Shown one piece after another: positions 14,027 through 35,814 of a stretch of DNA of 64,000 nt; position 1 is the stretch's first letter; each line of letters starts with the position of its first letter. Below the pieces are notes generated by a model. That model searched no databases and was not told where the DNA came from. It saw only the letters and a program-made list of their open reading frames with translations. The position numbers were made by a program, and so were the translations under genes. The DNA is from Fulvivirga maritima (GTDB lineage Bacteria; Bacteroidota; Bacteroidia; Cytophagales; Cyclobacteriaceae): contig NZ_CP089980.1 in NCBI RefSeq assembly GCF_021389955.1, positions 4,893,001 to 4,957,000 on the forward strand, read 5' to 3'.

Positions 14027-14310
14027 GTGCTTGTAGACACTGGTAGGAGGGGGTTGGTTAGCAGGATCGTTTTGTCTATATTGAAATTGATTTGCTAAAG
14101 AATGTCGTCGATGACAAACAAAAGAGGGCGCCAAGAGGCTGAAGTTTAAGTGAGTTTAATGTAAGTGATTGGTTTGCAATGTTTTAAAATTTCGTCGAAG
14201 CCCGGGTAAAATTATATGATCGGAGGTCGACGCTTTTAGTAACTCAAAATGTTATTTGAAATATTGGAAAATGAGGAAAATAAGCCGATGTTTACTTTGA
14301 AACCCATCGG
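14027..14310 (+). promoter_or_regulatory. candidate CRISPR leader
   Basis: This 284-bp gene-free stretch lies before the first intact repeat. The array orientation (repeat ends in ATTGAAAT, the expected 8-nt crRNA handle; the degenerate repeat is at the far end) puts the leader here. A perfect 9-bp inverted repeat, AAGCCGATG (14282-14290) with CATCGGCTT (14305-14313), straddles the leader-repeat junction. I cannot point to a specific promoter. Confidence 0.6.
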
Positions 14311-14792
14311 CTTCTAATCGCACCTATGAGGAATTGAAATATAATTTTATTGGCTTCAGCTACACCTTTGGCTCCTTCTAATCGCACCTATGAGGAATTG
14401 AAATTTTCAAGGGGATAAAAACTTTAAATTTGTAGGTAACTTCTAATCGCACCTATGAGGAATTGAAATTTATGTATGGCAAATTCTACCACGTCACGTC
14501 TCGTTTCTTCTAATCGCACCTATGAGGAATTGAAATTCTGCTGTGCCTACGGTCTGACTCAATGTCATAGGTCTTCTAATCGCACCTATGAGGAATTGAA
14601 ATTAGAGTCAGCATCTTTATTATCATCTATGCAAAACTTCTAATCGCACCTATGAGGAATTGAAATTGGAGGAAGACCTTAAATCAACTCAAATTCAGAT
14701 ATCTTCTAATCGCACCTATGAGGAATTGAAATAGGTTGATAGAGCGAGACAGGCCACAAGTGAAGTAACTTCTAATCGCACCTATGAGGAAT
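14311..14792 (+). CRISPR. CRISPR array, 8 repeats and 7 spacers
   Basis: A 30-bp repeat begins CTTCTAATCGCACC and ends GAGGAATTGAAAT. Starts are at 14311, 14375, 14440, 14507, 14573, 14637, 14703 and 14769. The first seven copies are identical; the eighth matches only the first 24 bases (to 14792) and then diverges, marking the leader-distal end. Spacers are 34, 35, 37, 36, 34, 36 and 36 bp and all different. The repeat's ATTGAAAT end is typical of Cas6-processed type I-B/III arrays and would be the 5' handle of the crRNA. cas6 starts about 210 bp downstream on the same strand. Confidence 0.98.
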
Positions 14793-14798
14793 GGACAC

Positions 14799-15006
14799 TG
14801 ATGCTAACTGCTATTGTCTAAAAACTAAATAGCCAAAACTCCTTCACAAAGAAATTCCGGCCCTTCGGAAACTATTTCCCGCCCTTCGTACATCTCTTTC
14901 TGGTTTATGAATATTTAATGTTATCTATGGATAAATAATGCATTTGTAAAGCAAGTCAATACTTATAATATTATTAACTTAATTAATATTATTAAATAAG
15001 ATTGAA
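14799..15006 (+). promoter_or_regulatory. region between CRISPR array and cas6
   Basis: A 208-bp, mostly AT-rich gap that should hold the promoter of the cas operon. It contains a small hairpin, TTCCG/CGGAA at 14855-14870, and a near-repeat of its loop (CCCTTCG) 20 bases later. No open frame is visible. Confidence 0.4.
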
Positions 15007-15795
15007 ATGAGGCTCAGAATAACATTAAAATCAGAAAGTGATAATTGCCAGCTGCCCATTAATTATCAATATGTGGTGCACAGTTGGATTTATAGTGTTT
15101 TGCAAAAGGCTGATGCTGAGTTTAGCCAATTTTTACATGATGATGGCTACAGAGATAGAGGGAAAGCCTTTAAATTTTTCCATTTTTCTAATCTGACAGG
15201 ATTGCCCTATCAGGTGAAAGGGGATAGGATCATATTTGATACTGATTACCTGCACCTTACCGTAGGCTTTTTATTGCCAGATGCTATGCAGAAATTCATT
15301 CTGGGCTTGTTTAATAAACAGCGCCTGGTATTGGGAGATAAAAGGAGTAGCGCGGCTTTTGAAGTAGAAGAGGTGCAGCTGCTGGCACGTCCTCATTTCC
15401 AAACCACCATGAATTATAGAGCGCAAACGCCATTGGTCATCTCCAAAAAAGAAGTCACTGACCGATATGCTCAATATTTATCTCCAGAAGACGGCCGTTA
15501 TGAAATGTGCTTCATCAATCACATGCTGCAAAAGTATAAAATAGCGGTTCCGCAGTTAGTAGATGAAGTATCTGCAGAAGTTGATGATTTCATAGCCATG
15601 CAATGGAAGCTACAGTCAGCACCTAGAAAAAAGGGAGTAACCATTAAGGAAGGCACGCCGCAAGAAACACAAATAATAGGCTATGTCTATGATTTTGAGT
15701 TTACGGCTCCTCCAAAAATTCACCAAATGGCTTATGATGCCGGCTTTGGCGAAAAGAATAGCCTGGGTTTTGGGTTTTGTCAGCTACTGAATTGA
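15007..15795 (+). CDS. cas6: CRISPR endoribonuclease Cas6
   Basis: A 262-residue RAMP-fold protein. The N-terminus (MRLRITLKSE, LPINYQY, FLHDDGYR, FKFFHFSNL) and the C-terminal Gly-rich loop GFGEKNSLGFGFCQLL are the standard Cas6 signatures; the latter binds RNA. His44 in FLHDDGY sits where the general-base His of many Cas6 enzymes lies. Cas6 cuts the pre-crRNA within each repeat, leaving the 8-nt handle seen in the adjacent array. It is the first gene of a tightly packed operon; the cas10 ATG follows its stop after two bases. Confidence 0.95.
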   Translation: MRLRITLKSESDNCQLPINYQYVVHSWIYSVLQKADAEFSQFLHDDGYRDRGKAFKFFHFSNLTGLPYQVKGDRIIFDTDYLHLTVGFLLPDAMQKFILGLFNKQRLVLGDKRSSAAFEVEEVQLLARPHFQTTMNYRAQTPLVISKKEVTDRYAQYLSPEDGRYEMCFINHMLQKYKIAVPQLVDEVSAEVDDFIAMQWKLQSAPRKKGVTIKEGTPQETQIIGYVYDFEFTAPPKIHQMAYDAGFGEKNSLGFGFCQLLN

Positions 15796-15797
15796 TA

Positions 15798-17489
15798 ATG
15801 AATAAATTAATGGAAACTCAAATTGACGCTACAGTAGAGAAAGATAGTTTTTATAAAAAGAAAGCACTTTTCGAAAAAGCTTTATATAAGGGTGAAATCA
15901 CAAACGGAGGTTATGTCGTAAAAGGCGATTTATCTGGAATTCAGTCCTTTATTTTCAATATTCCTTCAAAACACGCCAGTATGTATCTGAAAGGTCGCTC
16001 TGCATATTTACAGTTGCTTAGTGAAGTAGTAGCGCGCTATGTTCATGATAAACTTGTAGGAGAAAGCATGGACTTTTCACAAGCGGTAATCTATAAAGGA
16101 GGCGGTAATTTTCTTCTCTATTATGAAGATGAGCTCATATATGAAAAGATTGAAAGCCTTCAGGCAGAAATAGATAAGGTTCTATATGAGGCGCATCATG
16201 AAGGTTTATACCTTGCTTTAGCTGGTGTCCGGTATGAAAAAGGGTATCAGGCTACATTAAACCAACGACTGCAAATTCTGAAAAAGCGAAAGTTTAGTGG
16301 ACTGAGTCATCATAATCTATTTGAGCCTTATGAAAAAGCGGAGAGACGCCCCATTTCTGGTGAAAAGAGAATTGATAATTGTGGGCAAGAAGAGGTGGCG
16401 GGATTTTATGAAAGCTTTAAAAAATTAGCAGAGGAGTATATAAAAGCTGAAGCTATTTCTTTCAAGTCTGTAAAAGGTGGTGCTGGGAATTACAATTCCT
16501 GGGATGGAGTATTTGATGCATTTGAGCAGCAGGTGGAATTTGATAATGCCCATGCGGAGCCTTATAGAATGGTAAATCGTATTGATGTCCGTTCTTTTGA
16601 TGACCTGGCTAAAAACAGTGAGGGTGCCGAGAAATTAGCGCTTTTGAAAGTGGATGTAGACAATATGGGAGATCTTTTTTCCGATAAAAGCCTGAAGCAG
16701 ACTCAGGAAATAAGTGATGCCCTCGGGTTCTTCTTTGAAGAGTATTTAAATACCATAATAGATGAGTTTAAAGGAGATGTTGAGTTGTACAACGAGGAGG
16801 GAAAAAAGGTTGACATCAAAGAAAATGTCAGGCGGATATATACGGTATACAGTGGTGGAGATGATGCCTTTTTAGTAGGTCCTTGGAATGTCATGGTAGA
16901 GCTTGCAAGCAGACTCCATCAAGAGTTTGACGCGTTTGCACCAAAGTCAGCTGAAATTAGTCTTTCAGCTTCGCTCACCATCATTGATAAAAATTATCCG
17001 GTAATACAAGCGGCAGAAACGGCCGAGAACTGGCTTCATTTGGCAAAGCATAGGGACGGTAAAAATGCCATCTGCCTTTTTGGTGAGGTATTTAGCTGGG
17101 GTGAGTGGGGGTATATCGACAAACTAGTGGAGTTACTGCATGGAATAATAGAGTCCACACCTGGAAACCCTAGAGCAATTATTAGAAAAGTGGAAGGCAC
17201 TACTTCTGCATTTAGAAAAATCACCAACAATATAAACCGACATGATGAACTAAAAATGCAGAGTGTTTATAAGCTGATGTATTACGTGCGACATTTAAAG
17301 AGCGGGAAGAATGAGTTAGCAGAGATCTATAAGAATATTATTTTAGACGGGTTTCTTCGTCCTGATTCATTTGCTTCTGAGAATGCGCATGGCCTAACAA
17401 AGCAAGTAAATGTAAACTATATGATTGTACCAGTAGCATGTAGGCTGGCTGAATTTTATCAAAGAAAAATGGGAAAACATGACTTATGA
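15798..17489 (+). CDS. cas10: Cas10/Csm1-like subunit with GGDD motif, lacking the HD domain
   Basis: The large subunit of a type III effector. I chose the ATG at 15798, just after the cas6 stop, rather than an in-frame start inside cas6; this gives 563 residues. The first palm domain begins almost at once (GDLSGIQSFIF, 43-53; KGRSAYLQLL; YKGGGNFLLYY). The second palm carries an intact GGDD at 353-356 (YSGGDDAFLVGPW), the site that makes cyclic oligoadenylates. Typical Csm1 proteins are about 750-850 residues with an N-terminal HD nuclease; here there is no room for it and no separate HD gene nearby. The usual four-Cys zinc site is not evident (one Cys in the region). It overlaps csm2 by 11 bases. 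Confidence 0.93.
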   Translation: MNKLMETQIDATVEKDSFYKKKALFEKALYKGEITNGGYVVKGDLSGIQSFIFNIPSKHASMYLKGRSAYLQLLSEVVARYVHDKLVGESMDFSQAVIYKGGGNFLLYYEDELIYEKIESLQAEIDKVLYEAHHEGLYLALAGVRYEKGYQATLNQRLQILKKRKFSGLSHHNLFEPYEKAERRPISGEKRIDNCGQEEVAGFYESFKKLAEEYIKAEAISFKSVKGGAGNYNSWDGVFDAFEQQVEFDNAHAEPYRMVNRIDVRSFDDLAKNSEGAEKLALLKVDVDNMGDLFSDKSLKQTQEISDALGFFFEEYLNTIIDEFKGDVELYNEEGKKVDIKENVRRIYTVYSGGDDAFLVGPWNVMVELASRLHQEFDAFAPKSAEISLSASLTIIDKNYPVIQAAETAENWLHLAKHRDGKNAICLFGEVFSWGEWGYIDKLVELLHGIIESTPGNPRAIIRKVEGTTSAFRKITNNINRHDELKMQSVYKLMYYVRHLKSGKNELAEIYKNIILDGFLRPDSFASENAHGLTKQVNVNYMIVPVACRLAEFYQRKMGKHDL

Positions 17490-17967
17490 AGAAAGAATAC
17501 AAAGGCTAATAAGCCTTGCACTGGAAATACCGGAGGGATGGGGAAATAAGAAATCCTATTTAACCGATATTGAGGATTATGTAAAGCATAATTTGGCTAA
17601 GGTGACAGCCAGCCAAATAAGAAACCTATTTAATGCAATAGATCAAAAGAAGAAAACTGAGGAGCTTATTATGATTATTCCTGACCTGAAGTATGCTGCA
17701 GGTAAAAGGGGAACTGACGAAGCTCTCAAAAGATCACTTATCCATCTATACATCCCTGTTCTAGAAAAGGTGAATAGTGAAGTGAAATTGGAGGCTTTTA
17801 AAAATTTTAATAAAGCTATACTCTGCTTTCATAAATACTATGAAAATAATAAACCAAAAAACAATCATGGCACTAAAAGCAAAAATTATAATCAACGGAA
17901 AAATTCTAACAAAAACCGGTCTTCACATAGGGGGAAGCAAGGGAGCAATAGAGGCGGGCGCACTTGA
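17479..17967 (+). CDS. csm2: type III-A small subunit Csm2, with a basic tail
   Basis: The Csm2 small subunit lines the crRNA-target filament of the type III-A complex. Residues 1-121 match the family: TASQIRNLFNAIDQ, IIPDLKYAAGKRG and the closing FNKAILCFHKYYE. Csm2 proteins usually end soon after this point. Here the frame runs on to 162 residues with a tail almost entirely of Lys, Arg, Asn, Ser and Gly, ending SNRGGRT. This tail is written over the first 101 bases of csm3 in another frame. It starts inside the end of cas10. Confidence 0.9.
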   Translation: MTYEERIQRLISLALEIPEGWGNKKSYLTDIEDYVKHNLAKVTASQIRNLFNAIDQKKKTEELIMIIPDLKYAAGKRGTDEALKRSLIHLYIPVLEKVNSEVKLEAFKNFNKAILCFHKYYENNKPKNNHGTKSKNYNQRKNSNKNRSSHRGKQGSNRGGRT

Positions 17968-18631
17968 TAGCCCAGTTATTAAAAGCGCGGCAGGTGTACC
18001 GTATATACCGGGGAGTTCTTTTAAAGGAAGCTTAAGATCTGCAATTGAAACATCTATAGATACAAAAGATATTTTAACAGATAAAAGATCAAAACTCATA
18101 AATGATCACACGCATCCTATTTGTATTGTCTTTGGTATAGGGGCAAAATATACTAATGAGGTGCAGACCAAGGCTACTAGACTTATTGTTAGAGATAGCT
18201 TTTTAACACATGAAAGTGAAATTGCTCTTTCTTCGAAAACAAATGGCTTTGAAAAGCTCAGTGAATTTTATACAGAAACGAAACATGAAAACATCATACA
18301 TCGAGAGACAGGAGGAACGGTTCAAGGAGGATTACGAGAAATTGAAAGAGTACCAGCCGGAGCAATTTTTGATTTTGAAATGGTATATGACGTTTATGAA
18401 GATACTGATTACGAGAACCTTAAGTTTATTGCAACTGGCTTAAGATTACTGCAAGATCGCTATTTAGGAGGAAATGGATCACGAGGCTATGGTAAGGTTG
18501 TATTTCAGGATGTCAGATTGAAATATCGTACTATTAAAATGTATGAGGATAACGAAGAGGCAAAAAGACTTGATATTGATTTATTAAATGGAAAGTTCGA
18601 GGCTTCTAAACTCAAAGAACAAATAAAGTGA
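17867..18631 (+). CDS. csm3: type III-A backbone subunit Csm3 (Cas7 group RAMP)
   Basis: A 254-residue RAMP protein from the chosen ATG; an in-frame ATG at 17840 would add nine residues that do not look like the family N-terminus. The N-terminus LTKTGLHIGG and the block DSPVIKSAAGVPYIPGSSFKG are classic Csm3. Asp34, in GALDSPV, aligns by motif with the catalytic Asp that cuts target RNA every six bases in Csm complexes, so RNase activity is expected. The C-terminal region has LGGNGSRGYGKV, the Gly-rich RNA-binding loop. It is overlapped at its 5' end by csm2 and coupled to csm4 through a GTGA overlap. Confidence 0.94.
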   Translation: MALKAKIIINGKILTKTGLHIGGSKGAIEAGALDSPVIKSAAGVPYIPGSSFKGSLRSAIETSIDTKDILTDKRSKLINDHTHPICIVFGIGAKYTNEVQTKATRLIVRDSFLTHESEIALSSKTNGFEKLSEFYTETKHENIIHRETGGTVQGGLREIERVPAGAIFDFEMVYDVYEDTDYENLKFIATGLRLLQDRYLGGNGSRGYGKVVFQDVRLKYRTIKMYEDNEEAKRLDIDLLNGKFEASKLKEQIK

Positions 18632-19605
18632 TCCTCTATAAACTATACCCAAAACCTCCATTCAGTAGATTTAGAACCAGTAATGATGGCTTGGATATAA
18701 CAGATTACATGATTCATTCTGACACATTGTTCTCTTCGCTAGTGAATGTACATGCTCAGGTTTACGGGAAAGAGGATACTGATGAGTGGGTAAAGGATTT
18801 TGAAACGGATCAGTTGAGCATATCGTCTGCTTTTATAGGATTGGAGCAAGAAGGTAAAGTCATTTACTTTTTTCCTAAGCCAACTATGTTAATGGAGCAT
18901 GAGTTAATCCCTGAACACCGTAAAGCCAGCGCGGCTATGCAGTGGGTAAGCGAAGGGCTTTTACAGAAAATATTGGACCATTATGATTCAGATTCTAGGT
19001 GTAGCTTTTTGCAAATAAAGGATTGCGTAAAAAGTAAGGATGGTAAATTCTGGTGTTTGCCAGAAGAGTCAGGATCACTGCCCAACATTGTGACAAAACA
19101 AGTAAAGCCTGGTTTGGAGATTGATCGCCAAACCGGAGGTGCTGTAGAAGGCATGCTTTATAATCAAACCGATTGGATGTTGCCTTCGAAAACGAAGGAA
19201 TGGTACCCGTTTTTATTTGTGTTGGCCAAAGGAGAGCAGCAAAAATTGGCCGCATGCCTGCGATTATTGGCAGATACAGGTATAGGAGGTAAAAGAAGTA
19301 CCGGAGCAGGACAATTTGAAAGGGTAGAGGTATCTGATTGGTCATGGCAGCAGCCATCAGATAAAGGATTAGAATACCACCTTTCACTGCTCAATCCAGA
19401 GGCAAATGAAATGGATAAGCTCAGGTATTACGAGTTAAAAGTGCGTGCCGGACATTATGCAGGCAGGCAGCAAGAACTCATGCCGCATGTAAATATGGTG
19501 GGAGAGGGTGCTGTTACCCAACAAGGCACTACTGGCCGATTGGTAAGTCTATCTCAAACGCCTCCGATAATAAGATATGGTAAAAGTTTCACATTAGAAT
19601 TTTGA
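18628..19605 (+). CDS. csm4: type III-A RAMP subunit Csm4
   Basis: A 325-residue protein starting with GTG at 18628, overlapping the csm3 TGA stop by four bases, which suggests translational coupling. The N-terminus ILYKLYPKPPFSRFR, then SDTLFSSLVNVHAQVYG, fits Csm4, which caps the crRNA 5' handle and binds Cas10. The Gly-rich loop GIGGKRSTGAGQFE (about 210-224) and the end YGKSFTLEF also match. It is not Csm5: the N-terminus and the first-palm SDTLFSSL block are Csm4-like. No Csm5 gene follows; the next frame in the operon is a nuclease-like protein. Confidence 0.9.
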   Translation: MILYKLYPKPPFSRFRTSNDGLDITDYMIHSDTLFSSLVNVHAQVYGKEDTDEWVKDFETDQLSISSAFIGLEQEGKVIYFFPKPTMLMEHELIPEHRKASAAMQWVSEGLLQKILDHYDSDSRCSFLQIKDCVKSKDGKFWCLPEESGSLPNIVTKQVKPGLEIDRQTGGAVEGMLYNQTDWMLPSKTKEWYPFLFVLAKGEQQKLAACLRLLADTGIGGKRSTGAGQFERVEVSDWSWQQPSDKGLEYHLSLLNPEANEMDKLRYYELKVRAGHYAGRQQELMPHVNMVGEGAVTQQGTTGRLVSLSQTPPIIRYGKSFTLEF

Positions 19606-19609
19606 TGAG

Positions 19610-20404
19610 ATGAGTAAGGAAAAGGATACAAAGGAAATAGTTGATCAGATAGCCGAAAATTACAAAGAACTGGAAAAAAAGGTTGCTAGTGAATTGAGTT
19701 TGAAGTTTAATGAACACCATCTAACCACGGGGCACAATCGAGAAGAAATTTGGATGAGCCTTTTCAGGCAAATTATCCCTATGAAATTCGCTATTAGGCA
19801 AGGTGTTTTCTTAATAGATTCTCAGGGTAAAGTTTCAAAAGAAGTGGATTTGGCCGTATTCGATGAGCAGTATACACCTTACATTTTCAATTATGGTAAG
19901 ATTCATTTTATTCCTATTGAAGCGGTGGCCATGGTAGTTCAGTGTAAGAGTAAAACTCTTAAAAATAAGAAGTTAGAAAAATGGTTATGGAGTATAGGTG
20001 AATTAAGTACTGAAGAAGGAGGGATCGCTCGCATAGCTACCTGTTTTACCTCTTTGCCTCCAAAAACTCAAAAGAAAACAAGACCTCTTCAGGTTCTATG
20101 TCATTTAAGTGATGAGGCACATAAGTCCGACCATTTTGATCTATGCATTTCATCTAGTCCTAAAGGGTTGAAAATTAAATGGAAAGATGGGTTTTCTTCA
20201 ATTGAAGATATATCAAAAACCTTGAATGGAATAGAAGAAGTTGAAATTGTTAATGAATCACTACAAAATTTAGAAGTTCCTGGGAATACTATTCTTACCT
20301 TAATTCTGCAGCTTAACCAGGTTTTGATGCTTATAAACAACCCTATGTTATTTCCGCATTATGCATATGCCAGGTTGTTTCGTGAGAAGCTAAGGGCTGA
20401 ATGA
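19610..20404 (+). CDS. DUF6602-like putative nuclease in the CRISPR operon
   Basis: A 264-residue soluble protein starting four bases after csm4, so part of the operon. The central block resembles DUF6602 proteins: REEIWMSLFR (44-53), SKEVDLAVFDEQYTP (76-90), IPIEAVAMVVQCKSK (101-115). This arrangement (E46, D80, then Q111-x-K113) is what a PD-(D/E)xK / Mrr-like restriction-endonuclease core looks like, with Gln in place of the usual Glu. I see no CARF, HEPN or RAMP motif. It occupies the slot where csm5 and csm6 usually sit. Nuclease activity and the DUF6602 link are inferences; operon membership is read directly. Confidence 0.7.
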   Translation: MSKEKDTKEIVDQIAENYKELEKKVASELSLKFNEHHLTTGHNREEIWMSLFRQIIPMKFAIRQGVFLIDSQGKVSKEVDLAVFDEQYTPYIFNYGKIHFIPIEAVAMVVQCKSKTLKNKKLEKWLWSIGELSTEEGGIARIATCFTSLPPKTQKKTRPLQVLCHLSDEAHKSDHFDLCISSSPKGLKIKWKDGFSSIEDISKTLNGIEEVEIVNESLQNLEVPGNTILTLILQLNQVLMLINNPMLFPHYAYARLFREKLRAE

Positions 20405-20462: not shown

Positions 20463-23400
20463 AAAAGCCTATACTCACTCAATACATAGATTTCTCCTGC
20501 CGTCGAAATGACAAACGCTTTTTTTTAATTATTGAGAGGAGGTCTCCAGAAAACCGTCATCCCGGCCGCAACGAAGTGAAGAGCCGGGATCTCACTGCTC
20601 AGGTGCTGCTGGCTGATCAGAGAGATTCCTGATATCATTCCGCTATCGCTTCATGATTCAGGAATGACGTTTTTTCTCTCTGATAATTACGAGGAAAACA
20701 TGACGAAGTAATCCCGAAGCTATGGAAAGCAGTCTGTATTGGTCAGCATAAGCAACTTATAGATTGCTTCATCACGCTTCGCTGCATTCGCAATTACCAG
20801 CTCTCTTGGCTAAGTGCGAAATCTTGCTGTACCGTCGTGCGGTGAAAAGGGAATGAAAAGCAGGCTTTTCTCAAGTCCTTAGTGGCAGTTCATGACTATG
20901 AAATGTTTCAGTGAGCGGAAGACCTCACAGCAAGAAAGATTTTTTTGTTACTTTTTTGATCGACTGCAAAAAAGTAAGGGAACTAGGGCAATGGAATGTT
21001 AATTGTGTGTCACCAAGTAGGCTGTTCTTTGAAAGGCTTGTGCTAACTGAATACATAGATTTCTCCTGCCGTCGAAATGACAAACGCTTTTAAATATTGG
21101 AAATAAGAGACGGTCTCATAACATAAAACCGTCATCCCGGCCGCAACGAAGTGAAGAACCGGGATCTCACAGCTCAGGTAGTGCAACCTGATCAGCAAGA
21201 TTCCTGATATCATTTCGCTATCACTTCATGATTCAGGAATGACGTTTTTTTTCTCTCTGGTAATTACGAGGAAGCTATGACGAAGTAATCTCGAAGCTAT
21301 GGAAAGCAGTCTGCATAGGACAGTAGAAGGAAGTTTGAGATTGCTTCATTACGCTTCGCTGCATTCGCAATTACCAGCTCTCTTGGCTAAGTGCGAAATC
21401 TTGCTGTACCGTCGTGCGGTGAAAAGGGATTGAAGGGCAGGCTTTTCTCAAGTCCTTAGTGGCAGTTCATGACTATGAAATGTTTCAGTGAGCGGAAGAC
21501 CTCACAGCAAGAAAGAGTTTTTTGTTACTTTTTTGATCGACTGCAAAAAAGTAAGGGAACTAGGGCAATGGAATGTTAATTGTGTGTCACCAAGTAGACT
21601 GTTCTTTGAAAGGCTTGTGCTAACTCAATACATAGATTTCTCCTGCCGTCGAAATGACAAACGCTTTTAAACTATTGGAAATAAGACAAGGTCTCGTAAT
21701 ATAAAGCCGTCATCCCGGCCGCAACGAAGTGAAGAGCCGGGATCTCACTGCTCAGTTGGTGCAACCTGAGCAGTGAGATTCCTGATATCTTTCCGCTATC
21801 GCTTCATGATTCAGGATTGACGTCTTTTTCTATCTGGTAATTACAAGGAAAACATGCCGAAGTAATCTTGAAGCTATGGAAAACAGCCTTCACAGAGGAC
21901 AGCATAAGCAACTTTGAGATTGCTACATTATGCTTCGCTGCATTCGCAATTACCAACTATCTTTGATAAGTGTGAAATCTTGCTGTACCGTCGTGCGGTG
22001 AAAAGGGATTGAAGGGCAGGCTTTTCTTAAGTCCTTAGTGGCAGTTCAATTATATGAAATGCTTCAGTGAACGGAAGACCTTACAGCAAGAAAGAGTTTT
22101 TTGTTACTTTTTTGATCGATTGCAAAAAAGTAAGGGAACTAGGGCAATGGAATGTGAACTGTTTGTTGCCAAGTTCGCTGTTCTTTGCAAGGCTTGTGCT
22201 AACTTAATGCATAGATTTTCTCCTGCCGTCGAAATGACAAATGCTTTTAAATATTGGAAATAAGAGACGGTCTCATAATATAAAACCGTCATCCCGGCCG
22301 CAACGAAGTGAAGAGCCGGGATCTCACTGTTCAGTACTGCTAGCTGATCAGTGAGATTCCTGATATCTTTCCGCTATCGCTTTATGATTCAGGAATGACG
22401 TCTTTTTCTATCTGGTAATTACGAGGAAAACATGACGAAGTAATCCCGAAGCTATGGAAAGCAGTCTGCATAGGACAGTAGAAGGAAGTTCGAGATTGCT
22501 TCATTTCGCTTCGCTGCATTTGCAATTACCAGCTCTCTTGGGTAAGTGCGAAATCTTGCTGTACCGTCGTGCGGTGAAAAGGGATTGAAAAGCAGGCTCT
22601 TCTCAAGTCCTTAGTGGCAGTTCAATTATATGAAATGCTTCAGTGAACGGAAGACCTTACAGTAAGAAAGAGTTTTTTGTTACTTTTTTGATCGACTGCA
22701 AAAAAGTAAGGGGGCTAAGGCTATGGAATACAAACTGTGTGTCGCCAAGTTCGCTGTTCTTTGAAAGGCTTGTGCTAACTCAATACATAGATTTCTCCTG
22801 CCGTCGAAATGACAAACGCCTTTTTTTAAATTATTGAGAGGAGGTCTCCAGAAAACCGTCATCCCGGCCGCAACGAAGTGAAGAGCCGGGATCTCACTGC
22901 TCAGGTAGTGCAACCTGATCAGTGAGATTCCTGATATCATTCCGCTATCGCTTCATGATTCAGGAATGACGTCTTTTTCCTATCTGGTAATTACAAAAAA
23001 GCCATGACGAAGTAATCCCGAAGCTATGGAAAGCAGTCTGCATTGCGCAGCATAAGCAACTTTGAGATTGCTTTATTACGCTTCGCTGCATTCGCAATTA
23101 CCAGCTCTCTTGGCTAAGTGCGAAATCTTGCTGTACCGTCGTGCGGTGAAAGGGGATTGAAAATCAGGCTTTTCTCAAGTCCTTAGTGGCCAGTTCATAA
23201 CTATGAAATGCTTCAGTGAACGGAAGATCTTACAGCAAGAAAGAGTTTTTTGTTACTTTTTTGATCGATTGCAAAAAAGTAAGGGAACTAGGGCAATGGA
23301 ATGTGAACTGTTTGTTGCCAAGTTCGCTGTTCTTTGAAAGGCTTGTGCTAACTCAATACATAGATTTCTCCTGCCGTCGAAATGACAAATGCTTTTAAAC

Positions 23401-25555
23401 TATTGGAAATAAGAGACAGTCTCACAACATAAAAACCGTCATCCCGGCCGCAACGAAGTGGAGAGCCGGGATCTCACAGCTCAGGTGCTGCTGGCTGATC
23501 AGCAGGATTCCTGATATCATTCCGCTATCGCTTCATAATTCAGGAATGACGTTTTTTTCTTTTCTGGTAATTACGAGGAAGCCATGAGGACGTAATCCCG
23601 CAGCTATGGAAAACAGCCTTCACAGAGGACAGCATAAGCAACTTCGAGATTGCTTCATTAGGCTTCGCTGCATTTGCAATTACCAGCTCTCTTGAGTAAG
23701 TGCGAAATCTTGCTGTACCGTCGTGCGGTGAGATGGGATTGAAAAGCAGGCTTTTCTCAAGTCTTTAGTGGCAGTTCAATTATATGAAATGCTTTAGTGA
23801 GCGGAAGACCTCACAGCAATAAAGAGTTTTTTGTTACTTTTTTGATCGACTGCAAAAAAGTAAGGGAACAAGGGCAATGGAATGTTAATTGTGTGTCACC
23901 AAGTAGGCTGTGCTTTGAAAGACTTGTGCTAATTCAATACATAGATTTCTCCTGCCTTCGAAATGACAAATGCTTTTAAACTATTGGAAATAAGAGACGG
24001 TCTCATAACATAAAACCGTCATCCCGGCCGCAACGAAGTGAAGAGCCGGGATCTCACAGCTCAGGTGCTGCTGGCTGATCAGAGAGATTCCTGATATCAT
24101 TCCGCTATCGCTTCATGATTCAGGAATGACGTTTTTTTCTCTCTGGTAATTACGAGGAAGCCATGACGAAGTAATCTTGAAGCTATGGAAAACAGCCTTC
24201 ACAGAGGACAGCATAAGCAACTTCGAGATTGCTTCATTAGGCTTCGCTGTATTCGTTACTACCAACTCTTTATGATAAGTGCGAAATCTTGCTGTACCGT
24301 CGTGCGGTGAAAAGGTATTGAAAATCAGGATTTTATCAAGTCCTTAGTGGCAGTTCATGACTATGAAATGTTTCAGTGAGCGGAAGACCTCACAGCAAGA
24401 AAGAGTTTTTTGTTACTTTTTTGATCGACTGCAAAAAAGTAAGGGAACTAGGGCAATGGAATGTTAATTGTGTGTCACCAAGTAGGCTGTTCTTTGAAAG
24501 GCTTGTGCTAATTCAATACATAGATTTCTCCTGCCGTCGAAATGACAAACGCTTTTAAGCTATTGGAAATAAGAGACGGTCTCATAACATAAAACCGTCA
24601 TCCCGGCCGCAACGAAGTGAAGAGCCGGGATCTCACTGCTCAGGTAGTGCAACCTGATCAGTGGGATGCCTGATATCATTCCGCTATCGCTTCATGATTC
24701 AGGAATGACGTTTTTTCTCTCTGATAATTACGAGGAAAACATGACGAAGTAATCCCGAAGCTATGGAAAGCAGTCTGTATTGGTCAGCATAAGCAACTTA
24801 TAGATTGCTACATTAAGCTTTGCTGCATTCGCAATTACCAGCTCTCTTGGGTAAGTGCGAAATCTTGCTGTACCGTCGTGCGGAGAAAGAGGTATGGAAA
24901 GCAGGCTTTTCTCAAGTCCTTAGTGGCAGTTCAATTATATGAAATGCTTCAGTGAGCGGAAGACCTCACAGCAAGAAAGAGTTTTTTGTTACTTTTTTGA
25001 TCGACTGCAAAAAAGTAAGGGAACTAGGGTAATGGAATGTAAACTGTGTGTCAACAAGTTGGCTGTTCTCTGAAAAGCCTATGTTAATTCAATACATAGA
25101 TCTCTCCTTTCGTCAAAATGACAATCGACTTTTTTTAAAATTATTGAGAGGAGGTCTATATAAAAACCGTCATCCCGGGCCGTAACGAAGTGAAGAGCCG
25201 GGATCTCACTGCTCAGGTAGTGCTGGCTGATCAGCAAGATTCCTGATATCATTCCGCTATTGCTTCATGATTCAGGAATGACGTCTTTTTCTATCTGGTA
25301 ATTACGAGGAAGCCATGAGGAAGTAAACCCGAAGCTATGGAAAGCAGTCTGCATTGGGCAGCGTAAGCAACTTATAGATTGCTACATTACACTTCGCTGC
25401 ATTCGCAATTACCAGCTCTCTTGGGTAAGTGCGAAATCTTGCTGTACCGTCGTGCGGTGAAAGGGGGTGATAATGAGGGGTGTTCACAAGTTCATAGTGG
25501 CAGGTCATAGACACTATGAAATGTTTGAGTGATCAGAGGGTTTCAGAATAAGAAA
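20463..25555. repeat. tandem array of ~577-bp direct repeats (about 8.8 units)
   Basis: Nine copies of a core (CCGTCATCCCGGCCGCAACG) start at 20554, 21129, 21707, 22286, 22856, 23436, 24016, 24595 and 25167, spaced 570-580 bp. Each unit carries, in order: a ~116-bp three-hairpin core ending in a T-run; a stretch with GACGAAGTAATC...AAGCTATGG and CTGTACCGTCGTGCGGTGA; then a perfect 11-bp inverted repeat (TTACTTTTTTG/CAAAAAAGTAA). The array starts about 60 bp after the CRISPR operon in a partial unit (matching from CTCAATACATAG) and fades out near 25555. Copies are highly similar with scattered substitutions. The 60-codon frames inside the units are not credible genes: two of eight are cut by stops. 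Confidence 0.95.
22856..22971. repeat. three-hairpin (cloverleaf-like) repeat core, representative copy
   Basis: The best-paired copy of the core. Hairpin A: ATCCCGGC with GCCGGGAT. Hairpin B: CTCACTGCTCAGGT with ACCTGATCAGTGAG (13 of 14 pairs, 6-base loop). Hairpin C: ATTCCTGA with TCAGGAAT, extended inside by ATCAT/ATGAT. An outer CGTC/GACG pair closes the whole. A run of T follows after TC. The other tandem copies and the two copies at 35.3-35.8 kb keep the same layout. Confidence 0.85.
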
Positions 25556-25581
25556 ATAAGGGTAAGAGCTAGTTATACTAG

Positions 25582-25758
25582 CTAATTATCAGAAAACAGC
25601 TTTTGATATAATTTTTTGTGGCCTTCTTTTACATTTATTCTTCGGTACCTTATCTCTTCTAATATACAATCCACATCAATTAATAAGTCAAAAACAGATT
25701 CATCGGAAACAAATTTATCGGGATCGACCGTTACGATCTTAGAATTTTTATTTTTCAT
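25582..25758 (-). CDS. small acidic protein, unknown function (58 residues)
   Basis: A minus-strand frame just outside the tandem repeat array. The ATG at 25758 opens a 58-residue protein that reads like real coding sequence: MKNKNSKIVTVDPDKF at the start, a middle rich in Asp/Glu and Leu/Ile (VFDLLIDVDCILEEIRYRR), and a lysine-rich end closing in LFSDN. It probably forms one or two helices. I do not recognise a family. The overlapping plus-strand frame (25616-25837) has a far less protein-like composition. The palindrome AGCTAG/CTAGCT at 25567-25583 overlaps its stop. Confidence 0.55.
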   Translation of the reverse strand: MKNKNSKIVTVDPDKFVSDESVFDLLIDVDCILEEIRYRRINVKEGHKKLYQKLFSDN

Positions 25759-25958
25759 GGAGTATCAGGTTAGATTAGTTATACTAAATATATATAATTG
25801 TATTATAACATCAATAATTTATGTGGAGTTTTATTAAATTATATGTAGATATTATTTGGTTTAAAATATACTTTCATGTGTGGTAAGAGAAGCAGGCCTT
25901 TAACTTATAAGAAAGTCATTGTGTATTTGTGTTGTATAAATTAATATTGCACCTTCAA

Positions 25959-26357
25959 ATGAAACCGATCTCAAACATAGGAGCTTATATTTTAGCCGCA
26001 CTACTCTTTGTGCAGGCTTTTCAGGCGCCTATTGTTTATGTGGCATTTAAGGTGCAGCAAGATTATATTGCTGATAACCTCTGTGAAAATAGGTTTAAAG
26101 AGATAACCGTTTGTAGAGGTTCCTGTGTGCTAAAAGAAGATCTGGAAAAAGTGATGGATTTTGGTTCAGATAAAAGTGCTGAGCATCCTACCAGAATAAA
26201 GCTTGAAAGTTCTCCTTATTGTCTTTTAAGTCATTTTACTTCTAATAATGAGTCCATAAGCGAATGGATTAATTTTGACTACCCTCATTATTCAGAGAAA
26301 TTACTGTCTGGTTATAGCTCAGACTTATTTATTCCCCCTCAGTTAAGTATCATTTAA
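25959..26357 (+). CDS. small exported Cys-containing protein, first gene of copper/heme cluster
   Basis: A 132-residue protein from the ATG at 25959; an upstream in-frame TTG at 25929 would add ten residues before the signal segment. It has an N-terminal hydrophobic stretch (IGAYILAALLFVQAFQAPIVYVAF) and then a Cys cluster, LCENRFKEITVCRGSCVLKEDL. This layout resembles small Bacteroidota exported proteins with a CxNK...CxGKCYL motif found near metal-uptake genes. That family link is from memory of the pattern and is tentative. The three clustered Cys could bind metal. It is followed 217 bp later by two MbnP-like genes. Confidence 0.7.
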   Translation: MKPISNIGAYILAALLFVQAFQAPIVYVAFKVQQDYIADNLCENRFKEITVCRGSCVLKEDLEKVMDFGSDKSAEHPTRIKLESSPYCLLSHFTSNNESISEWINFDYPHYSEKLLSGYSSDLFIPPQLSII

Positions 26358-26573
26358 GTACCTTATTTAATTATAGTTTATCAGCACTATGTATTTATTT
26401 CAGTGCATGATATGCCTATAGCTATATTTGATCTGGTACGCTCGCCCCAAAACTCAGATAATCGCTTGCTTTAAATTCTATAATCGCATGTAATAATGCC
26501 TTTGTATTGATAAGCTGTGCTGAGTTTTAAATGATATTTTAAAATTTATAACCAACATCAAATTCAATTAAAA

Positions 26574-27377
26574 ATGAAGAACACTTTGTTTTTCGCAGCA
26601 CTTTTATGTGCTTTCATATCTCTTTTTTCGTGCTCTGATGATGATCGGGAAATTATTGAAGAAGTAGTTATTAGTTGTGGAAGTGACCTTACTTTAATTT
26701 TCGATAATGTATTAGGTGAAGAGGATTTTGTGCTTAACCAAGCATATGAAGTAGGAGACGTTGTATACAGTTTCAATAGCCTTCGTTACTGGATTAGTAA
26801 TGTGAGTTTTAGAAAAAGTGACGGTACTATAGTTGAAATTCCTGATTCTTATTATCTGATTGAAGATACTGAAGATGTTTCAATACAAGATGGTATTTAT
26901 ACTTATACTGGTCAGAAAAGAGAAGATATCAACTTTGCTGATTTCGAAGCAGGCACCTATACTTCAGTAATATTTTCAGTAGGTGTAGATGAGGAGCATA
27001 ACGATAATTTAAGCCTTAGTGCGGGTGAGTTATCATCTATGGTAGGTATGACTAATGTGTCATGGATGTGGCATACTAGCTATATTTTCACTTCATTAAA
27101 AGGTACTGCCGAAAGTGGAGATACTAAAACCGTAGAAATAGAAACGGGTCTTAATGATAATTATAGAACTATAGAATTAGAACTGCCTGGCTCTATTGAA
27201 GTAACTAATGACAGTAGTTATCAAATTACAATTACGGCTGATGTACTTACTACACTTCAAGCTTTTGATAACTGGGAAAACCCTGTAGTAGGGGCTTCAC
27301 AGCCAGAACTTATGGAATCAGTGTCAGATAATTTTGCAGCTGATTTTTTCACCCTTAAGGTGCCTTCTCAAAACTAA
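26574..27377 (+). CDS. MbnP-like lipoprotein (copper-binding family), copy 1
   Basis: A 267-residue lipoprotein (SLFSC lipobox, Cys20, then an acidic DDDRE stretch). The blocks LRYWISNVSF and VSWMWHTSYIFTSLKG are hallmarks of the MbnP family, and YTSVIFSVGVD is another. Characterised MbnP is a periplasmic copper-binding protein in which a conserved Trp is oxidised to kynurenine by the di-heme partner MbnH; the WMW here is the candidate site. It pairs with a second MbnP-like gene and two di-heme peroxidase genes downstream. Copper as ligand is inferred from the family. Confidence 0.88.
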   Translation: MKNTLFFAALLCAFISLFSCSDDDREIIEEVVISCGSDLTLIFDNVLGEEDFVLNQAYEVGDVVYSFNSLRYWISNVSFRKSDGTIVEIPDSYYLIEDTEDVSIQDGIYTYTGQKREDINFADFEAGTYTSVIFSVGVDEEHNDNLSLSAGELSSMVGMTNVSWMWHTSYIFTSLKGTAESGDTKTVEIETGLNDNYRTIELELPGSIEVTNDSSYQITITADVLTTLQAFDNWENPVVGASQPELMESVSDNFAADFFTLKVPSQN

Positions 27378-27456
27378 TTCATGAAATAAATCATAGCGTT
27401 GGCTGCCTCAAATAATAATCAACTGATACAGCTACGCTTTTAAATTAAACATCATA

Positions 27457-28251
27457 ATGAAAATTTTCAAATACATATATATCAGTGTTTTATGCTCATC
27501 TATGCTCATGGCTTGTGGTGATGACGATAATGAAGCTACTCCTGAGGGAGGTCAAGCCATTTTGGAGTTTGACAACCGCGTAGGTATGGCAAATCTTAAC
27601 CTGGATACTGAGGACTATCCCTACACTAATGCTTTGGGGCAGGATTTTAATGTTAACATGTTAAAGTACTATATCAGTAATATCAAGTTTAGTAGAGAAG
27701 ATGGTACCGAATACACTTTTCCTTTAAGTGAAGATGGTTCAGAGGGCTATTATTTGGTAGATGAAGAAGATCAATCTACTATGTTTCTACACTTAAATGG
27801 CATACCTGAAGGCGATTATACAGGAGTTACGTTTACGGTAGGTGTTGATGCGGATCGCATTTTGGAAGGAGCTCAAACTGGGGCTTTAGATGTTACTAAT
27901 GATATGTTCTGGAACTGGAATGCCGGCTATATTTTCATGAAGTTTGAAGGACATTCTCCGGTTTCCACAGAAGATAATCAGGTTTTGGAATACCACGTTG
28001 GGGGTTATAAAGCAGATTCTGAACAACCTACATTAGCAGATAACGTGAAGCAAATTTCGCTTAATGGAGATTTTACTATTAGTGAAAACAAAGAGCCGCA
28101 AATACACGTGGTGGTAGATATTCTTAAATTCTTTGATAGCCCTAACACTATAGATTTTAGTGTTAATGCCAGTAGGCATTCTCCAGCCGCTTCTATTGAT
28201 GTAGCAGAAAATTATGTTGACGCATTTGTCTTAGATCATATTCATGAATAA
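27457..28251 (+). CDS. MbnP-like lipoprotein (copper-binding family), copy 2
   Basis: A 264-residue paralogue of the preceding gene. It has a lipobox MACG (Cys20) followed by DDDNEA. The family blocks are LKYYISNIKFSREDG, YTGVTFTVGVDADRI and DMFWNWNAGYIFMKFEG, with the Trp pair in the same place as in copy 1. Its stop overlaps the start of the MbnH-like peroxidase gene by eight bases, a direct sign of co-expression with the enzyme expected to modify it. Confidence 0.9.
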   Translation: MKIFKYIYISVLCSSMLMACGDDDNEATPEGGQAILEFDNRVGMANLNLDTEDYPYTNALGQDFNVNMLKYYISNIKFSREDGTEYTFPLSEDGSEGYYLVDEEDQSTMFLHLNGIPEGDYTGVTFTVGVDADRILEGAQTGALDVTNDMFWNWNAGYIFMKFEGHSPVSTEDNQVLEYHVGGYKADSEQPTLADNVKQISLNGDFTISENKEPQIHVVVDILKFFDSPNTIDFSVNASRHSPAASIDVAENYVDAFVLDHIHE

Positions 28252-35097: not shown

Positions 35098-35315
35098 TAT
35101 GTCTCCGCTTTGAGCTAGATCGAAAGAAGGCGATATTTCACGTAATAGAATTGAAATAGATTACTTGGTATGGTCACCAAACCTAACCATCAGGATCACC
35201 ATGACCCAAGGAGAGACCTATTTTACTAGTTTAAGACAAACCCGTTAGTCGGCGTATGTCCGTAGCCTTTGGCGCGCTGTTTTCAACGCGTGCCATCTAG
35301 ATTAGCAAATAAAAG

Positions 35316-35430
35316 CCGTCATTCCTGAATCATGGAGCATAGCGCAATGATATCAGGAATCTCACTGTTCGGTTGGTGTTATCTGAACGGCGAGATCCCG
35401 GCTCTTCACTTCGTTGCGGCCGGGATGACG
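35316..35430 (-). repeat. dispersed copy of the three-hairpin repeat core, reverse orientation
   Basis: CCGTCATTCCTGAATCATGG at the left and GCGGCCGGGATGACG at the right: the reverse complement of the core found nine times in the tandem array at 20.5-25.5 kb. Hairpins A and C are kept; hairpin B reads CTCACTGTTCGG/CTGAACGGCGAG with changes on both arms, partly compensating. Confidence 0.9.
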
Positions 35431-35492: not shown

Positions 35493-35662
35493 TATCATGT
35501 GCAAGACCATTTGCTCGGAATAAGATAAGCAGATGTCTGAAGGTACAATGTGCAATGAGTATTTCATGACACCATTTTGTGCATAAACAAAGGAATTTGA
35601 GCGGATGCTACGACCAGTTGGGTAAAGCAGGCTTTCGCACACATGAATTAGTAAAGAAAAAA

Positions 35663-35778
35663 CCGTCATTCCTGAATCATGAAGCAGAGCGCAATGATAT
35701 CAGGAATCTCACTGTTCGGTTAGTGCTATCTGAACAGCCAGATCCCTGCTCTTCACTTCGTTGCGGCCGGGATGACGG
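35663..35778 (-). repeat. second dispersed copy of the three-hairpin core, reverse orientation
   Basis: It begins CCGTCATTCCTGAATCATGA and ends GCGGCCGGGATGACGG. Same reverse orientation as the copy at 35316. One arm of hairpin A has ATCCCTGC instead of ATCCCGGC. A partial copy of another part of the tandem unit follows at about 35815-35915. Confidence 0.9.
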
Positions 35779-35814
35779 TAAATGATTATAGTACTTATAA
35801 TGGTGATTGAGAAC

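Follow-up and report, generated by a model that had tools for sequence, protein, structure and literature searches.

A long non-coding tandem array beside a CRISPR operon in Fulvivirga maritima is probably a BIME-like mosaic of REP palindromes and the core of a mobile element

The window, a stretch of 64,000 nucleotides of the Fulvivirga maritima chromosome (positions 4893001-4957000), carries next to its CRISPR operon a tandem array which very probably is a BIME-like interspersed mosaic, built from REP palindromes (modules A, B and C) and the core (module D) of a mobile element that is non-autonomous and confined to the genus, and tandemly amplified in intergenic space. It is the longest pile-up found of a REP/D repeat family that is dispersed over the whole chromosome. 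Most likely, the array is without a dedicated product or host function.

The tandem block extends over 20463-25562 and holds nine (8.8) units with start-to-start spacings of 569-582 bp, in agreement with the nine cores at 570-580 bp described in the initial annotation. Counted from their core starts, the units lie on the forward strand at 20463-21031 (unit 1, which begins within module A and has a complete D), 21032-21608 (unit 2, the 577-bp reference unit), 21609-22187 (unit 3), 22188-22763 (unit 4), 22764-23336 (unit 5), 23337-23917 (unit 6), 23918-24496 (unit 7), 24497-25072 (unit 8) and 25073-25562 (unit 9). The high similarity reported among them holds at mostly 88-92% identity: pairs within units 1-8 share 87.5-92.6%, and the diverged unit 9, which finishes in a decayed and truncated D at about 25562, shares 79.5-84.6% with the remaining units. 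The start of the array was placed 59 bp past the stop codon of the last CRISPR-operon gene (ORF 19610-20404), where about 60 bp had been given. The view that it contains no credible gene also stands: in the ORF list, the sole ORF of at least 80 amino acids touching the array is an 86-aa reverse-frame ORF at 22680-22940. Tandem Repeats Finder did not report the array, because its maximum period is 500. A satellite-like higher-order period, in the form of a variant segment common to units 1, 5 and 9, was considered and found to be absent from the full identity matrix and the lag analysis.

Long near-repeats can be mis-assembled, and the tandem copies might on that account be an artefact of assembly. 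Such an origin is extremely unlikely, as the chromosome is one closed contig of 6.39 Mb and a related array occupies the orthologous site of a congener whose genome was assembled independently; in particular, duplication during assembly is improbable because the units differ by 8-12%. Extra near-identical copies, beyond the nine units, may have been collapsed in assembly.

With module borders set by where matches to the unit elsewhere in the genome start or stop, each unit was resolved into four modules, all of them dispersed intergenic repeats, which together make up a mosaic and are given here by their forward-strand positions in unit 2: (i) module A (21032-21085; unit positions 1-54), the tail of a D-element, which includes an intact single REP, AGATTTCTCCTGCCG-T-CGAAATGACA (REP sequence AGATTTCTCCTGCCGTCGAAATGACA), of the type that IS110 targets elsewhere in the genome; (ii) module B (21130-21244; about 97-220), a CGTC-tagged REP doublet, CGTCATCCCGGC...GCCGGGATCTC / GATTCCTGA...TCAGGAATGACG, with covarying stems; (iii) module C (21259-21376; about 222-347), a further REP doublet, GGTAATTAC...GTAATCTC / GAGATTGC...GCAATTACC; (iv) module D (21398-21576; 367-545), a conserved core of ~180 bp closed by the inverted repeat TCTTGCTGT...ACAGCAAGA, after which comes a hairpin, TTACTTTTTTG...CAAAAAAGTAA. 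B and C consist of REP palindromes as inverted pairs, which is characteristic of BIMEs and REPINs. The palindromes previously noticed in the units are borne out, with 84% (B) and 82% (C) of the pair cells keeping the fold, compared with 24-44% in controls with the pairing shifted by 1-3 columns. Compensatory changes were found in both stems of B (for example, C-G/T-A, G-C/T-A and T-A/G-C), and the covariation of B also appeared in a raw pattern search (CCCGGCC/GCCGGG versus CCCTGCC/GCAGGG).

Module D is the most constant of the four across loci and species, and its closing stem, TCTTGCTG(T/C)/(A/G)CAGCAAGA, shows one compensatory pair between species (T-A 44 to C-G 35). Both features would suit an array that codes for a structured non-coding RNA in several copies, with D as the RNA and one transcript per unit. 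However, consensus folding of the D alignment, from which decayed copies had been removed, yielded little covariation besides that closing-stem pair and a hairpin; the fold energy of D is no better than that of dinucleotide shuffles (z -1.36), and a multi-branch RNA fold of D was rejected as not significant against the shuffles. Rfam searches at gathering and relaxed thresholds returned no family match, only chance matches to human lncRNA/miRNA. Many D copies, moreover, are truncated, and the conservation of D at one orthologous locus is about that of the adjacent genes (~86%) and not above it; an earlier impression of stronger conservation in D than in the surrounding genes was dropped after better orthologous loci were compared. 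An RNA-encoding role is thus very unlikely, and the idea of a structural RNA template finds no backing here. In the covariance analysis across units that had been proposed, covariation was seen in the stems of B and came down to one clear pair in D. Given that D is conserved about as well as its gene neighbours, some constraint on it may exist.

Searches of the rest of the genome and of relatives, which had been called for, place the modules in a large family. BLAST of the unit against the genome gave at least 107 matches, and pattern searches found about 43 copies of D at about 30 intergenic loci and 47 B-type REPs (0 for the reversed pattern); these copy numbers are lower bounds, the BLAST scans having scored a subset of candidates. 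The modules are dispersed in many intergenic copies, a further characteristic of BIMEs and REPINs, and occur in varying combinations with break-points common to several loci. Within the window, two copies of B lie outside the array on the reverse strand, at 35315-35430 and, 347 bp from the first, at 35660-35779. A second array of the 577-bp unit is located at 4.49 Mb between unrelated non-CRISPR genes, and other tandem loci have periods of ~345 bp (L066, L078 and L033) or ~425 bp (L032). Among 15 genomes of the genus, the D pattern is present in 43 copies here and in 31 and 12 copies in two congeners, and is absent from the 12 others; in the named genome collection it was found in Fulvivirga sediminis only, and in viral contigs it was not found. 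As three of the 15 genomes carry D, the family is patchy across the genus, like mobile DNA.

Alignment of isolated D copies identified D as the core of an element of ~435 bp, with left end TACCAATGAC and right end ...GTGCGGTTGAAACAAATGTTAGGTCT, and many of the D copies are located in such an element. The genome also houses an IS110-family element of 1571 bp (recombinase NF033542, E 4.8e-63), whose five copies compared here are 97-100% identical (92% in a congener) and are inserted in REPs, either AGATNTCTCCTTTCG-T-CGANATGAC or CTTCGACGGGGC-T-CAGTGTGAC. The right 39 bp of the D-element are 82-87% identical to the right end of this IS110 (best E 4e-8), the left end is common to IS110 and the better-preserved D-element copies, and the REP head NNNNATGAC flanks most D-element right junctions, as it does at the IS110 copies. 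Since both the ends and the REP-head target match those of the resident IS110, the full-length D-elements appear to be non-autonomous IS110 passengers, with their mobilisation by the recombinase and its bridge RNA predicted from sequence. Consistent with such mobilisation, at two loci a D-element present here is missing from the orthologous site in the sister genome G006; these empty sites are not base-exact, with diverged flanks and no recognisable intact target. IS200-like Y1 elements were rejected as the parent of D, their flanks showing no similarity. The initial annotation listed amplified mobile-element debris among several possibilities, and it is this one that the modules support, being dispersed REPs together with an IS110-type passenger.

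The D-elements themselves carry a CTTCGAC...GTGAC REP, and that REP is the IS110 target in L066 and L038; nested insertions are therefore to be expected. In the ~345-bp arrays, the junction reads ...TTAGGTCT followed directly by CA(G/A)TGTGACTC, that is, the right end joined to the second half of the CTTCGAC...GTGAC REP. Within the window, the 577-bp units gave no match to the IS110 right end, and the REP of module A is intact. As these units hold no IS110 ends and the evidence comes from other loci, we infer an IS110 step in the history of the window array from those loci.

Traces of recombination were found among the units. Identical tracts between units were significant (p<=0.01, permutation) in 9 of the 44 pairs, some of them involving the 4.49-Mb array, and unit similarity does not drop with distance along the array, so that there is no nearest-neighbour gradient. 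Furthermore, an orthologous D locus with conserved flanks comprises a single unit in one species and a tandem pair in another. The mosaic tracts and the one-versus-two-unit locus point to recombination in the form of duplication, deletion and gene conversion. In the proposed course of events, REPs would have spread first, perhaps via RAYT-type single-strand transposases; the IS110 recombinase would then move D-elements in trans into REPs; the REPs borne by the D-elements would allow nested insertions and so give rise to mosaics; and unequal recombination plus gene conversion between units would lengthen and homogenise the block.

The site of the array has a history that is shared between species. 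Upstream on the forward strand are CRISPR repeats (CTTCTAATCGCACCTATGAGGAATTGAAAT; 14305-14792), the type III-A genes cas6, csm1 (cas10), csm2, csm3 and csm4 (15007-19605) and the last gene of the operon, which is NucC-like (19610-20404; DUF6602; PADLOC NucC, E 8e-72); downstream, on the same strand, a 142-aa ORF, a gene for an MbnP-family protein and a 264-aa ORF follow (25929-28251). In the sister species genome G006, which is probably F. sediminis, the site is flanked by the same genes (at 73-75% DNA identity) and has the same CRISPR repeat along with a closely related cas6, after which the type I-B genes cas5b, cas3, cas8b and cas7b replace the III-A genes. Next come a shorter D/A/B array, in which a 203-aa ORF is embedded, and then the MbnP orthologue and the same downstream genes, the segment 25904-29330 being conserved (75% DNA identity) past the shorter array. 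Besides one another, the nearest relatives of the G006 D copies at this site are the D copies of the window, and the array site therefore predates the species split. In one lineage or more, CRISPR effector genes have been exchanged beside the array, and the array may have offered the homology for this III-A/I-B exchange, which is one event.

The same CRISPR repeat and cas6 in both species, the I-B versus III-A genes, and a D/A/B array after the effectors in each could also be taken to mean that the array is functionally tied to the CRISPR-Cas locus, serving its regulation or a selected exchange of cassettes. This too is very improbable: arrays of the same type are present elsewhere without CRISPR, dozens of dispersed copies are unlinked to defence, and for a single exchange event general repeat homology is enough of an explanation. 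Lying next to CRISPR genes does not amount to a functional link, because the second 577-bp array adjoins non-CRISPR genes and the site is common to a species with another effector type; the initial annotation had left open whether the adjacency has a meaning. The suggestion of a recombination hot spot fared better and is plausible in view of the mosaic units, the copy-number difference between species and the adjacent effector exchange. A bolder form of the mobile-element reading, to which we give a low probability, would have the D-elements as miniature IS110-type passengers carrying the REP targets of their own recombinase, RNA-guided recombination between their ends and internal REPs as the builder of head-to-tail arrays, and the arrays as joints at which defence cassettes are swapped, in this case CRISPR effectors of type III-A versus I-B.

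The placement of the family on the chromosome was examined by GC skew, which over 50 stretches located the terminus at around 5.15 Mb and the origin at around 1.6 Mb; an origin at dnaA (3.10 Mb) was rejected, and replichores were assigned by the skew. D copies cluster around the inferred terminus, with 24 of the 28 loci oriented against the leading strand (p 1.8e-4). The dispersed copies of B are oriented likewise, except for one locus at 3.87 Mb, and most D loci of the congener G004 show the same tendency. This location, the near-uniform orientation of D and B, its likeness in a congener and a description of BIMEs elsewhere as binding several proteins (PMC2817692) would be consistent with a chromosome-organising or protein-binding region, for instance gyrase/IHF-like BIME sites or a terminus-related system. 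Such a role is nonetheless hardly likely, as both 577-bp arrays run in reverse of the orientation rule, most congeners are without D and no conserved protein partner was found. The bias would also be left by insertions that Y1-type enzymes make into lagging-strand single-stranded DNA (PMC6006769) or be expected from placement relative to genes. RAYT genes are present in the genome, one of them at 5.85 Mb with a C-type REP doublet just downstream; the remaining RAYT loci examined have no adjoining REP doublet.

As a BIME-like mosaic, the array is known in kind, and its size and composite unit are new. With the BIMEs and REPINs of Escherichia coli (BIME-2) and Pseudomonas fluorescens SBW25, it shares an intergenic and dispersed occurrence, inverted REP doublets and ordered tandem clusters that include flanks, such as those formed by REP doublets in SBW25 (PMC3116915). 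Arrays are likewise oriented differently on the two halves of the chromosome, as are the tandem REP arrays of P. fluorescens, which take opposite orientations there (PMC3116915). The array differs in its 577-bp unit of three REP types plus a non-REP core of ~180 bp, in its length (5.1 kb, whereas the largest ordered REPIN cluster given in PMC3116915 measures slightly more than 700 bp) and in its occurrence in a member of the Bacteroidota without a clear cognate RAYT. The CGTC-tagged REP class lists Bacteroidetes among its phyla, and large ordered clusters are rare in it (Di Nocera et al. 2013, PMC3733652), whereas they are present here. Like that class, module B forms inverted dimers and has the CGTC tag with an 8-bp stem starting AT (8-9 bp from AT in families 1-4); it was not filed in these families, because its loops are 16 and ~24 nt (families, 4-5) and its tail is CTC (families, CCA). 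Compared with bacterial satellites or macrosatellites (tandem repeats >100 bp), long head-to-tail units and mosaic homogenisation are shared, but the units here are built of dispersed mobile repeats that also occur singly.

REPs are targets of several insertion sequences (PMC1525189), and their targeting by an IS110-family element is established for IS621 (PMC11208160). Similarly, the IS110 of this genome is inserted in REP heads, and its ends and target recur in the D-element; unlike IS110-family elements, the D-element lacks a gene for the recombinase and contains its own REP targets. Papers that name IS110 together with non-autonomous miniature elements are few.

Any effects of the array would be indirect: it would supply homologous sequence for rearrangements and sites for IS110 to land in, and possibly hairpins where transcripts end. 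What seemed a unique non-coding block can now be read as an example of long mosaic arrays being built in Bacteroidota by REPs, an RNA-guided IS110 and recombination, and it is a natural marker of cassette turnover at a CRISPR locus. If IS110 does move the target-carrying D-elements, array growth by RNA-guided recombination would be directly testable.

At the CRISPR locus of the window, type III-A effector genes plus a NucC-like effector are encoded at 14305-20404, whereas the counterpart in the sister species G006, probably F. sediminis (locus L172; G006:C23:472000-491000), harbours the type I-B effectors Cas5b, Cas3, Cas8b and Cas7b. Despite these different effector genes, the two loci share the same CRISPR repeat and a close cas6, and both flanks are conserved between them. 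At the orthologous G006 site, a 203-aa ORF with no match in Pfam lies between array units (L172:14333-14944). In the window, a possible ORF of ~56 aa is on the minus strand (25590-25758), located in the gap that separates the array from the next gene.

Copies of D (the ~180-bp core) and B (the CGTC-tagged REP doublet) are, as a rule, oriented against the leading strand, the main exceptions being both 577-bp arrays (G000:C1:4491249-4492973 in the F. maritima genome and window 20463-25562).

A 1571-bp IS110-family element, which encodes a 439-aa recombinase, has repeatedly inserted into the heads of A-type and CTTCGAC-type REPs. Copies are located at L066:1688-3258, at L038:1442-3012 and in L080, with two more positioned almost head to tail in L075; the element is also present in the congener G004 (loci L140 and L154). 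Identity of the copies is 97-100% inside the F. maritima genome and 92% in a congener.

CGTC-type REPs have been described as having no dedicated transposase. At ~5.85 Mb (locus L046), a RAYT-like gene (REP-associated transposase type; 139 aa, under the NCBIfam cut-off), which is probably truncated, is followed within ~200-300 bp by a C-type REP doublet. In L035 (G000:C1:5550000-5566000), small ORFs and the C-terminal ends of Rhs/YD-repeat proteins follow one another in a series, kept apart by B-C REP doublets; this arrangement looks like cassette turnover, with the REPs standing between cassettes.
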